NCBI GenBank assembly: GCA_039962225.1
Contig: JAMPKV010000023.1
Location: forward strand, 1-64,000
Direction of reading: 5' to 3'
From: Microcoleus sp. AS-A8
Lineage (GTDB): Bacteria; Cyanobacteriota; Cyanobacteriia; Cyanobacteriales; Coleofasciculaceae
DNA length: 64,000 nt
Shown here in pieces: positions 19,454 through 24,440 of the stretch. How positions within the stretch are numbered: the first letter of the stretch is position 1; every line of letters begins with the position of its first letter. The notes under the pieces are model-generated. The model worked only from the letters and a program-made list of their open reading frames with translations. It had not been told where the DNA came from and ran no database searches. Made by a program: the position numbers and the translations under genes.

Positions 19454-20692
19454 TCAATCCTTAATTTGACCACTTGTAGCGAGTACACGCGCACTCACAC
19501 CCAACACCCGTAACAATCCCTCCGAATCGGCATGATTATAACTACCAATCCCTTCCATCGAGGCATTCTCTTCTGAATAGAGGGAATGAGATGTATTCGT
19601 TGCCGAAACAAACGAGATATTCCCTTTATAAAGAGAAACCGTAATCGTTCCTGTCGCCAATTCTGCTGTGGGTTGAATCGCTTGCAATGCCATCTGAGTA
19701 GCCAAGTCAAACCAATACCCCTGATAGATTTGCTTGGCAATTAATAAAGATAATTGGTCAAAGAATTCACGAGAACGGCGATCTAAAATCAGTTGCAGCA
19801 ACAAGGCATAACAAGTTCCTAGTATTTCTACACCTGGGCTTTCATAAACACCCCGTGACTTAATCCCCACGAAGCGATTCTCGACTAAATGAGTGCCAAT
19901 CCCGATACCATGACGCCCGCCGATCGCATTCGTCTGAACAAATGCCTCAACTAAGTCTACCGAACTGCCATTAATCGAAACCGGACGACCTTGCTCAAAG
20001 TGTACCGTGAACTCCTCCGCTTGATCGGGAGCCTCGGCAGGATAGCAACCCATAATTGGCTTGACAAAATGCGCCGGAGTTGATAGAGATTCCAGTAATC
20101 CCGATTCGTGGGTTAGACCGAGCAAATTAGCATCGGTGGAATAAGGCTTATCTTTCGTCGCCGAGACGGAGAGTCCCTTTTCTTCACAAAAGTCAATCAT
20201 CTCGCTGCGACCCGGAAAACGCGCTAAAAATTCCTCATCCCGCCAGGGCGCATACACCTCAAACTCTGGAGCAAGCATATTGGTGATCAGTTGAAAACGG
20301 ACTTGATCGTTGCCTCGTCCGGTTGCGCCATGACTGAAGATTGTCAGCCCCTTCTTTTGCATCTCCTGAATCATGGCTTTGGCTAGGACACACCGGGCGA
20401 TTCCTGTAGTATTCCAGTAGCGTCCTTCATAGCAGGCTTGAGATTGAATCACACTAAGACCCGCTTGTGCGATCGCTTCTCGTGCAGGTAACAAGACAAA
20501 ATCTGCTGCCCCCGCTAAGAGCATCCGCTGACGAATTGCTTCTGTATCGTCTTCATCCGGTTGCCCTAGGTCGGCGGTAAAACACACAACCCGTACCCCC
20601 TGATCGGTCAGCCAACGGGTGATGGTGCAGCTATCCAGACCACCAGATCCAGCAAATGCAATCGTTTTTCCTTTCAAATCTTGAGCTTTCAT
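19454..20692 (-). CDS. argG: Argininosuccinate synthase, E. coli-like divergent type
   Basis: This enzyme joins citrulline and aspartate with ATP to make argininosuccinate in arginine synthesis. The ATP pyrophosphatase loop is GSGGLDSCT near the N-terminus, followed by TADLGQPDEDDTEAIR. Blocks such as IGGRHGIGIGTHLVENR and IKSRGVYESPGVEILG resemble the longer E. coli ArgG type more than the short canonical cyanobacterial type, which starts MGRAKKVVLAYSGGVDTS. A remnant of that canonical type lies directly upstream at 20916-20990. Acquisition by transfer or retention of a second type is inferred. Whether the enzyme is the main ArgG of the cell is not known. Confidence 0.88.
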   Translation of the reverse strand: MKAQDLKGKTIAFAGSGGLDSCTITRWLTDQGVRVVCFTADLGQPDEDDTEAIRQRMLLAGAADFVLLPAREAIAQAGLSVIQSQACYEGRYWNTTGIARCVLAKAMIQEMQKKGLTIFSHGATGRGNDQVRFQLITNMLAPEFEVYAPWRDEEFLARFPGRSEMIDFCEEKGLSVSATKDKPYSTDANLLGLTHESGLLESLSTPAHFVKPIMGCYPAEAPDQAEEFTVHFEQGRPVSINGSSVDLVEAFVQTNAIGGRHGIGIGTHLVENRFVGIKSRGVYESPGVEILGTCYALLLQLILDRRSREFFDQLSLLIAKQIYQGYWFDLATQMALQAIQPTAELATGTITVSLYKGNISFVSATNTSHSLYSEENASMEGIGSYNHADSEGLLRVLGVSARVLATSGQIKD

Positions 20693-21158: not shown

Positions 21159-23735
21159 TCATCTTGCCAGTTCAGCGATCGCCCCAATCAACACATGGGG
21201 ATTAATCGGCTTGGCAAGATGCTGCTGGTAGCCTGCTGCTAGTAATCGTTCTCGGTCGGATTCATAGGCATAAGCGGTGAGCGCAATCGCTGGAAGATTC
21301 CTCAACTGTGGCAGCGATCGCACTTGATGAATCAATGCATAACCATCCATCTGCGGCATCTGAATATCGCTCACCAACACATTAATTGAAGATTGAGCCA
21401 TGACATCCAGTGCCGTTTGAGCTGATGTAACCGTCGTGACGATCGCCCCTTTTTGTTCCAGCAGCACCTGGAGAAACTGCAACGTATCCGTCTCATCATC
21501 TACGACTAATACCTGGATGCCTTGTAAGTTCGATGACTGATTCACCGAGGGCGGCTTAGGAACGACCGATTGGGATGCCGGAATCAGCGGCAGTCTGACG
21601 GTAAAGGTAGCCCCCTCTCCTTCTCCAGCACTGGCTGCCGAAATTGTGCCTCCATGCGCCTCAACCAGTTGCCGAGAGATAGCCAAACCTAACCCCAAAC
21701 CCCCAAACTGGCGAGTTGTGGAACTATCTTGCTGGCGGAACATTTCAAACAGGTGGGGCAGAAAATCTGGACGGATGCCTTTACCCGTATCACTGACTTG
21801 AATTTGGGCATAGCGCTCGACTTGTTCTAATCGCACTGTCACGCGACCACCTTCTGGCGTAAATTTGATCGCATTTAACAGCAAGTTCCATACGACTTGT
21901 TGTAGCCTTCCGGCATCGCCTGAAACCTCTCTCACGGTAGGGTCTAGCCTTGTTTCGATCGCGATTGATTTAGCCCAAGCCACTTGATGCACAGTTTCAA
22001 TTGCCGCCGTAATTGGGGTCAGCAGCGATACAGGAGTACAATTGAGGCTTAATTTCCCTCGGATGATGCGAGAGATATCCAGCAAGTCGTCAATCAGTTG
22101 CACTTGCAGCTTGGCATTGCGTTCGATCGTGGAGAGAGCCTGCCGGGTTTGCTCCTGGCTAAAGTTACGGGTTTGCAAGAGCTTGGCCCAGCCAAGAATC
22201 GGATTGAGGGGTGTTCGCAGTTCAGGGGAAAGAACTGCCAAAAATTCATCTTTGATTCGGTTAGCGTGAGCAAGCTGCTCAGTCTGTTGTCGTAGCTGAG
22301 CTTCGCTCTGGCGCAGTGCTTCCTCTGCCTGTTTGCGATCGTCTTCGATGCGCTTGCGCTCAGTAATTTCCTCGCAAACCGTACTGATCCCAATAATGCG
22401 ATCGCCATTCTTTAACGGCAAAAAGTGCTCTAACCAGATTCGCTGCACACCCGGTTGAGCCGGAGTTTCCCCGCTAATTTCCACATTCAGAATCGGTTCC
22501 CCCGTTTCCAAGATGGGGCGCAATATCTGTTCGGCTGCCTCAGCCATATCGGGTAGCACCTCACGCAACGTGCGACCGATATGGGCTTCAACGGGAAGCC
22601 CATTCATTTCTGCCAGTCGCTGGTTAATCCGCACAAAGCGGAAGTCGGTATCTAAGACGTTTAAACCTATTGGGGCTGATTGGTAGATGGCTTCAATTTC
22701 AGCCAGTTGCTGCTGAAGCTGTGCCTGACTCTGGAGCAAAGCGGCTTCTGCTTGTTTGCCATCGGTGACATCAGTGATTCGCACCAAATGCACGTTCCGC
22801 TCCCCAAAGCGGATGGATTTAGCCGCTAGATTGCCCCAGAAGTAATTGCCTTGACGGGTAACATATTCAATTTCTTTAATCCAAACCCCCTTGTGCATAT
22901 CAGCAACAATGGCATCTAGTTCATTGGGTGTAAATTGTTGCCGTTGCAGCGTATGCCCTTCAATACCAATTAACTCTTCCTTGCCACTTGCTTCAAACAA
23001 CTCCACTGCTCGCTGGTTACAGTCTACCGTCCGCAGAATTTCGGGATCGACCAGGAACAGGGCGTCACTGGATGCGTTGAAAACAGTTTCATGTAAATCT
23101 CTACTCTGTCGCAGCGCTTCTTCTGCCTGTTTGCGATCGTCTTCGATGCACTTGCACTCTGTAATGTCTTGAGCAAATCCCAGTACTTGATGCAACTGAC
23201 CGGCTGCGCTGCGGTGAAATACCCGATCTTGACTGGCAAACCAACGCCACTCGCCATTGGCATGACGCATCCGGTATTTGAATTCCACTAAGTCACTGGA
23301 TTGAGCGCGCTCAAGTTGCTCTAGGTGCCGTGGGAATCGGGCAAAATCCTCTGGATGCATAATGGTGGCAACAAAGTTGGCTCCCATTGCCATTACTCCA
23401 TCAACTGAGTAACCCAGTAATTCTGCTGCTTGCGGGCTAAGGTAGACAGACCGTTGAGCGATCGCATCAAATAGATAAACGACTCCCGGTAAATTGCGGA
23501 TGACTTGCTCAATGAATTGTGGGCTTGGCGGCACCTGAGCGAAGGGATTGAGGGGTTGCTCCTGAGATGAAGCCGATACCTCTGCGTTTAGGGATTGTGC
23601 TAGCTCTTGCGGGCTTTTGTGTTCCTCTCCGTCTAACCCAAGAGAGTTCGATGCGCTTGTATAAAGGTTTGAAGAGGGAAAACCAGCCAATGCCATATCG
23701 AGCGGGAAGTGTTCGGAGCGATCGAGGCTTTGCAT
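21159..23735 (-). CDS. PAS-domain hybrid histidine kinase with substituted H-box
   Basis: An 858-residue soluble sensor. Three PAS/PAC modules span about residues 65-195, 210-335 and 345-475, followed by a HisKA region, an HATPase_c domain (NLLLNAIKFTPEGG, DTGKGI, GGLGLGL boxes) and a C-terminal receiver (VVDDE, phosphorylatable Asp in VSDIQMPQMDG, Lys in LAKPIN). The H-box reads LAVLSPELRTPL: residue 504 is Pro (codon CCT) where the phospho-accepting His (CAT) is expected, so normal autophosphorylation should be impossible. The kinase ATP site and receiver look intact. No transmembrane segment is seen. No partner gene is adjacent. Confidence 0.9.
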   Translation of the reverse strand: MQSLDRSEHFPLDMALAGFPSSNLYTSASNSLGLDGEEHKSPQELAQSLNAEVSASSQEQPLNPFAQVPPSPQFIEQVIRNLPGVVYLFDAIAQRSVYLSPQAAELLGYSVDGVMAMGANFVATIMHPEDFARFPRHLEQLERAQSSDLVEFKYRMRHANGEWRWFASQDRVFHRSAAGQLHQVLGFAQDITECKCIEDDRKQAEEALRQSRDLHETVFNASSDALFLVDPEILRTVDCNQRAVELFEASGKEELIGIEGHTLQRQQFTPNELDAIVADMHKGVWIKEIEYVTRQGNYFWGNLAAKSIRFGERNVHLVRITDVTDGKQAEAALLQSQAQLQQQLAEIEAIYQSAPIGLNVLDTDFRFVRINQRLAEMNGLPVEAHIGRTLREVLPDMAEAAEQILRPILETGEPILNVEISGETPAQPGVQRIWLEHFLPLKNGDRIIGISTVCEEITERKRIEDDRKQAEEALRQSEAQLRQQTEQLAHANRIKDEFLAVLSPELRTPLNPILGWAKLLQTRNFSQEQTRQALSTIERNAKLQVQLIDDLLDISRIIRGKLSLNCTPVSLLTPITAAIETVHQVAWAKSIAIETRLDPTVREVSGDAGRLQQVVWNLLLNAIKFTPEGGRVTVRLEQVERYAQIQVSDTGKGIRPDFLPHLFEMFRQQDSSTTRQFGGLGLGLAISRQLVEAHGGTISAASAGEGEGATFTVRLPLIPASQSVVPKPPSVNQSSNLQGIQVLVVDDETDTLQFLQVLLEQKGAIVTTVTSAQTALDVMAQSSINVLVSDIQMPQMDGYALIHQVRSLPQLRNLPAIALTAYAYESDRERLLAAGYQQHLAKPINPHVLIGAIAELAR

Positions 23736-24172
23736 AAGATACTAGCTGGATTAGCGGGACGAAAATGATGTGGCAACGACCGCTGTTGCTGGTTCAATCT
23801 CGCCACAGCAATCCTGAATTTTGAGCGCCAATTGATAGGGCTCAGCCATATCTGGGTTGAGTGCGATGTTGAATCGGTAACGGTAGTGTGCGGCGAAGTT
23901 CCATCAAAAAAGGAATTGCCGATTCTATCTTTTGTGCAGTGCGATTGTTCACTCCGTAGCTCCTGCTACCGTTAAGACACAGCGTGCAAAGGATGCTCAA
24001 CTACAAGTCATCTCCCGGAGGTTAGATTTCACTCCTATCTAGGAGGATTATAACTTCTATCTAAAGACAGATTTTGTTCCATATAATATAAATTCCTAAG
24101 CCCTTAGAAGTGCCGCGCTGACCTCAAGAGGAAAGTCTCAATCTGTAGTTTTGACACAGATCACTGTAATAG
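23736..24172. other. Gene-free region upstream of the hybrid kinase
   Basis: 437 bp with no convincing ORF. It must contain the promoter of the minus-strand kinase. A hairpin-prone word (ctcctatctaggag) lies at about 24033-24046. No trace of cas12k, tniQ, tnsB or tnsC coding sequence is recognisable by eye. Confidence 0.4.
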
Positions 24173-24366
24173 TGTACAAAATTGATTTTCTCTCATGACA
24201 TCTAATTCGTCACTGTTACTTCAGCGACAGTTATCTGTCACAACGACACGCAGTTAGTCAGTGCGACAACAATCTGTCACTGATGACAATTATTTAGTCA
24301 CTATGCAAATTGATTGTAGAGGGACAAATAATTTGTCGAAACGCTCAAATAATTTGTCCCTCTACT
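24173..24366 (-). mobile_element. Probable relic end of a type V-K CAST / Tn7-like transposon
   Basis: Five sites of about 17 bp with the form (C/T)GACA-N6-(A/T)-TGTCA or AGTCA start at 24196, 24225, 24244, 24264 and 24284, all in one orientation; the last four are spaced 19-20 bp. This matches the TnsB-binding repeats I know from the ends of ShCAST-like elements (GTGACA..AT...TGTC). A TGTACA, the terminal hexamer of ShCAST, is at 24173-24178. A perfect 20-bp inverted repeat (24316-24335 / 24346-24365), itself made of gacaaataatttgtc words, touches the tRNA-Cys 3' end. The position next to a tRNA gene fits V-K elements, which home to tRNAs. No transposition or Cas gene is in the window, so this is a solo end or a mini-element. 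Confidence 0.6.
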
Positions 24367-24368
24367 TA

Positions 24369-24440
<72 letters not shown>

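Follow-up and report, generated by a model that had tools for sequence, protein, structure and literature searches.

A worn solo left end of a type V-K CAST beside tRNA-Cys in a cyanobacterial genome

A tRNA-Cys gene in a 7.75-Mb cyanobacterial genome is bordered by a short array of similar sites, which raises the question of whether the array is the end of a transposon and, if so, of what type and in what state. The window, by which we mean the whole stretch of DNA that was analysed, is 64,000 nucleotides long and runs from base 1 of contig C23 (94,976 bp). The best explanation overall, to which we assign a probability of roughly 0.9, is a relic of a V-K CAST at tRNA-Cys: a solo left end (LE), the rest of the element having been lost. 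Read on the minus strand and away from tRNA-Cys, a hairpin is followed by the hexamer TGCATA and then by five TnsB-type sites. The features are as follows.

24369 to 24440, minus strand: tRNA-Cys (GCA), probable attachment site
24315 to 24366, no strand assigned: hairpin made of two outward-facing V-K-type tips with their first sites, arms at 24316-24335 and 24346-24365
24195 to 24307, minus strand: solo LE, V-K CAST-type, tip towards the tRNA (BLASTN and alignment of 14 LEs)
24302 to 24307, minus strand: degenerate terminal tip TGCATA (alignment of 14 LEs)
24285 to 24301, minus strand: TnsB-type site 1, GTGACTAAATAATTGTC, matrix score 21.4, the highest in the window
24265 to 24280, minus strand: TnsB-type site 2, GTGACAGATTGTTGTC, 16 nt, read from the sequence and the LE alignment
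24245 to 24261, minus strand: TnsB-type site 3, CTGACTAACTGCGTGTC, matrix score 8.4
24226 to 24241, minus strand: TnsB-type site 4, GTGACAGATAACTGTC, 16 nt, read from the sequence and the LE alignment
24197 to 24213, minus strand: TnsB-type site 5, GTGACGAATTAGATGTC, matrix score 20.6

The LE lies downstream of the tRNA with its tip directed at it, and 61 bases separate the 3' end of tRNA-Cys from the tip. The five sites in one orientation that the first-pass annotation had described are present on the minus strand, from 24301 down to 24197; they start at 24301, 24280, 24261, 24241 and 24213, giving start-to-start steps of 21, 19, 20 and 28. The same annotation had noted a TGTACA at one side of the array. 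This hexamer exists at 24173-24178, but we rejected it as the tip of the element, as it lies at the end of the array remote from the tRNA and inwards of about 24195, where the homology to other LEs ends (the BLAST matches of L014 and L015 both stop at 24195). The homologous tip is at 24302-24307, where the window LE has TGCATA instead of the TGTACA found in 9 of the 13 other aligned LEs.

BLASTN searches of the same genome and its relatives with 24160-24368 as the query gave 19 match rows, with matches in 13 of 57 genomes. The best match in a relative was 82% identical to the window LE over 94 bp (E 4.5e-20), and similar arrays were found in the same genome on contigs C5 (83% over 72 bp), C30 (75% over 91 bp) and C11. 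One row was the hairpin matching itself; 15 of the 18 other loci, the window included, adjoin a tRNA gene, while no tRNA gene was found in the ~3 kb of L013, L019 and L020. Fourteen of the 15 tRNA-side LEs were aligned tip inwards, L014 being omitted as it has two tips.

The clustering of the sites was assessed in two ways. A pattern combining a tip with a site, modelled on ShCAST ends and allowing up to 3 mismatches, had 10 matches in the 7.75-Mb genome versus 1 for the reversed pattern that served as control, and two of the ten are the window LE and the left arm of the hairpin. A site matrix of 17 columns was built from 25 sites in 14 other LEs, with the window excluded; it does not detect sites 2 and 4, which are 16 nt long. 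Its top four matches in the 64-kb window all fall at 24197-24339. Four same-strand matches lie within 130 bp, where 100 dinucleotide-shuffled windows gave one (78 times), two (21 times) or three (once), in a test that is partly circular because the 14 source LEs were retrieved by their similarity to the window. A chance cluster of short palindromic words is a negligible prospect: the DNA is intergenic and weak single matrix matches do occur elsewhere in the window (18 scoring above 7, against 15.7 expected), but the cluster exceeds every one of the 100 shuffles, with the circularity just noted, and we count the homology at E 4.5e-20 to a tRNA-side end of another genome as refuting chance. On sequence grounds, the array is a true transposon end, with sites predicted to serve TnsB.

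The type of the element is indicated by its homologues. We assign the window LE to type V-K because the homologues on C30, in L014 and in L015 carry V-K repeats together with tRNA anchors. The C30 LE, at tRNA-Phe in the same genome, shares the end motif of the window and is followed in the fetched stretch by five full V-K repeats and by a truncated repeat, after which comes GAGCAGAGGACTGAAAAT, an anchor spacer identical to a stretch of tRNA-Phe that has a GTA PAM and begins 60 bp from the tip. Unlike the window, it thus retains the anchor unit and the repeats, and its contig ends before the remainder. The anchors of L014 (nine repeats) and L015 (one repeat) each have 1 mismatch in 15. This is the arrangement that PMC9938897 gives for V-K elements, with the LE downstream of a tRNA gene, a truncated repeat with a 17-nt anchor spacer, and a GTN PAM. 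As in the window, the LEs of ShCAST (Tn7747) and other V-K CASTs have TnsB sites in steps of about 20 bp and face the 3' end of the tRNA. A ShCAST LE probe from PMC9527255 matched 24 of 33 positions, ungapped, at 24257-24289, a stretch that includes site 2; nothing else in the window reached 22, which was also the best score in 50 shuffled windows. The ShCAST primers in PMC9527255 show the tip tgtacagtgac; the tip of the window LE is mutated to TGCATA. Unlike ShCAST, the window keeps the left end alone, and neither an anchor, a CRISPR array, cas12k, tns genes nor a right end was found.

Other Tn7-like elements that target tRNA genes, namely I-D or I-B2 CASTs or a Cas-less element with TniQ/TnsD, have a slight chance of being the source of the end. 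The I-D and I-B2 types are marked by a fused TnsAB and by a TnsD/TniQ that targets tRNA genes. tRNA genes are used by I-D and I-B2 CASTs according to PMC11406308, three loci at tRNA-Cys (L067, L103 and L118) have repeat arrays of a different kind, with GTACA close to the tRNA, and the tRNA-Cys of relative G001 has TnsB, TnsC and TniQ, whereas Cas12k had no match in the 32 kb retrieved there. Against such a source, the end motif of the window is that of the C30, L014 and L015 ends bearing V-K repeats and tRNA anchors, and the published ShCAST LE probe (PMC9527255) matches the window. By sequence comparison, the window feature is a worn relic of the known V-K kind, with no sign of a family that would be new. 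The earlier reading of a V-K left end facing the tRNA is thus upheld by homologues with V-K repeats and anchors and by the alignment it had proposed to a published V-K end (the 24/33 match at 24257-24289). Its suggestion of a possibly undescribed family is contradicted by the ordinary V-K repeats and anchor of the C30 homologue and by the same probe match.

What, then, remains of the element? Probes for cas12k, tnsB, tnsC and tniQ drew a blank across all 94,976 bp of the contig, in agreement with the first-pass statement that the window has no tns, tniQ or cas12k gene. Within 1.5 kb of tRNA-Cys there is no V-K repeat or anchor, the best anchor candidate having 4 of 15 mismatches. A search of the own genome for a tRNA-Cys anchor spacer (at most 2 mismatches) returned 20 matches, with the tRNA itself alone at 0-1 mismatches and none of the other 19 following a TTGAAAG. 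No right end was seen as a plus-strand matrix cluster left of the LE in the window or in the rest of C23; on the inner side of the LE this search spans ~24 kb, where the contig starts. A lone minus-strand site at C23:84965 was rejected as the right end, as it lies beyond the tRNA from the LE and has the wrong orientation. This right-end-like site (C23:84965-84988, tip TTTTACAGTGAC) lies 2.5 kb from tRNA-Arg(CCG), with no partner end seen. A decayed spacer in 24150-24190, sought by eye, was too weak to claim. Near the array, Rfam searches identified the tRNA alone; two animal microRNA families also matched the hairpin, both below threshold. We call the LE solo because the contig yielded no anchor unit, CRISPR repeats, cas12k, tns genes or right end; what the window preserves is the relic of a V-K CAST and not such an element itself. 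The same test on the 15 tRNA-side LEs found an anchor and repeats in three (L003, L014 and L015) and neither in 12, including the window. This proportion is a hint rather than a census, because the search started from a solo end and the test recognises just two types of repeat; L021 and L022 offered just 402 and 278 bp of interior.

The genome around this relic holds V-K machinery, as a genome scan suggested by the first-pass annotation brought out: Cas12k, TnsB, a TnsC ORF, TniQ and homologous ends all occur elsewhere in it. Family searches identified three full-length Cas12k genes (C4, C10 and C27) and a broken one in two pieces on C48 (L151 179-1266), and TniQ on C1 (two), C25, C27, C4 and C6. 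On C25, TnsB, TniQ and a short TnsC ORF adjoin a right end whose motif matches the window LE; in this set (L152 3115-5762) TnsB has 571 aa, and the TnsC ORF beside the right end is 142 aa long. The anchors of the V-K CASTs on C4 (from 94.2 kb) and C10 match tRNA-Pro(CGG) and tRNA-Val(TAC), respectively, and the match of the C27 anchor is to flanking DNA without a called tRNA; the three elements differ from one another in end motif. Further solo V-K LEs lie at C1:144251 beside tRNA-Val(CAC), with one clear site, and at C11:212585 beside tRNA-Thr(CGT), with about three sites. A 478-bp segment at C5:198411-198888 (L144), beside tRNA-Thr(GGT), has outward V-K tips at both ends and may be a mini-element or a shrunken CAST.

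There is a very slight chance that the window feature is likewise a mini-element, still movable in trans by the V-K transposases of the genome. Cas12k and TnsB genes are retained, and the segment with V-K tips at both ends on C5 illustrates such a form. However, no right end was found on the contig, the LE tip is mutated, and the C25 set, which has the matching end motif, has a TnsC ORF of 142 aa versus 323 aa in G001. The solo LE is presumably now inert.

Guidance to tRNA-Cys is observed in other cyanobacteria. We examined 97 loci, of which 55 contain tRNA-Cys and 54 are distinct in this respect (L059 and L178 are one place). Cas12k lies within ~2.1 kb on the relevant side in five of the 54 (L061, L068, L096, L109 and L124) and was not matched at the other 49, of which 16 offered less than 1.6 kb of flank. 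An anchor spacer matching tRNA-Cys is present in four (L061, L096, L109 and L124, not L068). The stretch that these anchors target, L061 being part of G004, is held by the tRNA-Cys of the window as GTAAGGCAGAGGTCTGC, 3' of a GTG PAM. Thus, a spacer against tRNA-Cys, which had been proposed as a check, was found in these cyanobacteria and not in the own genome.

One of these elements sits at the orthologous locus. L061 (JAIUYC010000071.1 of Coleofasciculus sp. S288; contained in L172 and in G004:C805) has the gene order cpdA, tRNA-Cys, end, anchor, repeats and Cas12k. This V-K CAST shares the tRNA-Cys/cpdA locus with the window, its anchor spacer AGGCAGAGGTCTGC matches tRNA-Cys, and its tip is 62 bp from the target start. 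Unlike the window, it has an anchor, repeats and Cas12k (the contig breaks inside that gene), and its end motif belongs to another lineage, the TTTAAAG type. The ends at tRNA-Cys in G001 and G006 also have a motif other than that of the window, and one exact pattern for an intact end of the window motif at tRNA-Cys had no match in 388 genomes. A tRNA-Cys anchor pattern matched 1 of 388 genomes, which is a lower bound because L096, L109 and L124 exceed the TTGAAAG-GGCAGAGG spacing allowed or lack its last A. At the same tRNA-Cys, G001 carries a Tn7-like element with TnsB, TnsC and TniQ (L141 12321-15806). tRNA-Cys is a V-K attachment site that has been used repeatedly, by more than one end lineage. 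Two further observations concern tRNA-Cys loci. The arrays of L067, L103 and L118 consist of repeats like CGACATGATCGTGCG and perhaps represent another type of Tn7-like end, and second, partial copies of the 3' portion of tRNA-Cys occur ~1.2 kb from the tRNA in L110 (3005-3049) and L122 (3270-3316).

We compared the position of the window LE with the insertion distances of these elements. Measured to the tip from the target start, which directly follows the PAM, the distance is 60 in C30 and L124, 62 in L096, L109, G004 and C10, 59 in L015 and 64 in C4; in C27 it is 46 from the full anchor start and 43 for a shortened target word. The tip of the window LE is 116 bp from the predicted target, taken with the GTG PAM as in L096, L109 and L124. 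PMC9938897 gives PAM-to-LE distances of 46-82 nt with a single exception of 147, so that 116 falls outside this range, unless the hairpin arrived later. Removal of the 52-bp hairpin span would place the LE at 64, and the tRNA-side tip of the hairpin is 57 bp from the predicted target start. With the GTA PAM of G004 all distances in the window are 4 less, i.e. 60 for the LE without the hairpin and 53 for the hairpin tip. A similar arrangement is seen in L014, where tips lie at 58 and 126; the one at 126 belongs to the main array, and site words in reversed orientation separate the two.

The hairpin between tRNA-Cys and the LE has the make-up of transposon tips. It is ~50 bp long, has a 10-nt loop, and contains three matrix matches (19.4, 19.6 and 12.3), both arms scoring as sites. 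The first-pass annotation had recorded a perfect 20-bp hairpin of related words touching the tRNA: the structure is real and is built from such words, but 19 of 20 positions pair, it ends 3 bases from tRNA-Cys, and the nature of its arms as V-K-type tips had been missed. The window has no other inverted repeat with 20-bp arms, a loop no longer than 20 and at most 2 mismatches. The left arm is identical at 23 of 24 positions to the end beside tRNA-Lys in L024.

We lean slightly towards the view that the hairpin is what a second element, inserted at this same spot, left behind on collapsing, because the outer tip of the hairpin is near the usual insertion distance and L014 shows the same geometry. 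Alternatively, the hairpin could serve tRNA-Cys as a terminator or in processing, or could be a palindrome that arose otherwise; we consider this a serious possibility at somewhat less than even odds. It folds strongly as RNA (z = -7.7), and a look-alike adjoins tRNA-Cys in L108. A related sequence (86% over 42 bp) occurs in G001, at L019, 17 kb from tRNA-Cys and with neither a V-K end nor a tRNA beside it. V-K CASTs duplicate 5 bp of their target, and the flanks of the hairpin (TTGAT and TAAGG) lack such a duplication. That the own genome has no further copy of the hairpin likewise counts against a second element. On the other hand, the hairpin does not belong to a common dispersed family, because the own genome holds no second copy and matches occur in 7 of 117 genomes including its own, covering 24-42 of 61 bases outside it. 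The near-identity of the left arm to the tRNA-side end in L024, the position of the outer tip near the insertion distance and the absence of a T run after the hairpin on the tRNA strand also speak against a terminator or an unrelated palindrome. In a locus with no tRNA called (L013, ~1590-1620, in G054), two transposon tips abut head to head (GTCACTGTTGTACAGTGAC).

The genes on the inner side of the LE bear on the history of the locus:

19454 to 20692, minus strand: argG, 3.7 kb from tRNA-Cys
21159 to 23735, minus strand: gene for a hybrid histidine kinase, in the interval from argG to the LE, with PAS, HisKA, HATPase and receiver domains

In relative G006, just 483 bp separate argG from tRNA-Cys, and they include a solo end with a different motif; in G001 argG is 111 kb from tRNA-Cys, in the opposite relative orientation. 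In none of the 55 loci did the first 500 residues of the kinase match anything to the left of tRNA-Cys, and elsewhere in 14 relatives there were partial matches only, among the matches listed. The hybrid histidine kinase may be former cargo. Comparison with sister strains, as had been proposed, did reveal ends of another motif in G001 and G006, but offered no clean empty site, because G001 has another element at tRNA-Cys and G006 a solo end of another motif.

The history that best fits a V-K relic would begin with a truncated repeat and anchor spacer guiding Cas12k to tRNA-Cys. TnsB would have bound the end sites, with insertion ~60-65 bp downstream of the PAM and the left end towards the tRNA. 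Next, a second element would have entered at the usual distance, displacing the old end outwards, before collapsing to two tips. After the first insertion, everything inwards of ~24195 would have been lost, namely the anchor unit with the CRISPR array, cas12k, the tns genes and the right end; the ~113 bp left over are the solo left end, which retains five TnsB-type sites and whose tip is mutated. That the window LE itself was guided to tRNA-Cys, and the order of these events, we infer from the comparisons above.

Solo V-K LEs might be retained as target-immunity tags that lower further guided insertion at the same tRNA, to which we give a small chance; if so, hosts or resident elements would gain by keeping bare ends. 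The apparent stacking in the window and in L014 speaks against complete immunity, not against partial immunity. In the open-licence literature searched, which misses key papers, we found nothing on orphan V-K ends, and we make no claim of novelty. A collapsed second element between the target and an old end is a suggested explanation for outlying PAM-to-end distances. In the end-based search orphan LEs outnumber anchor-bearing ends (12 of 15) and record past homing events. These tRNA sites thus collect old transposon ends.
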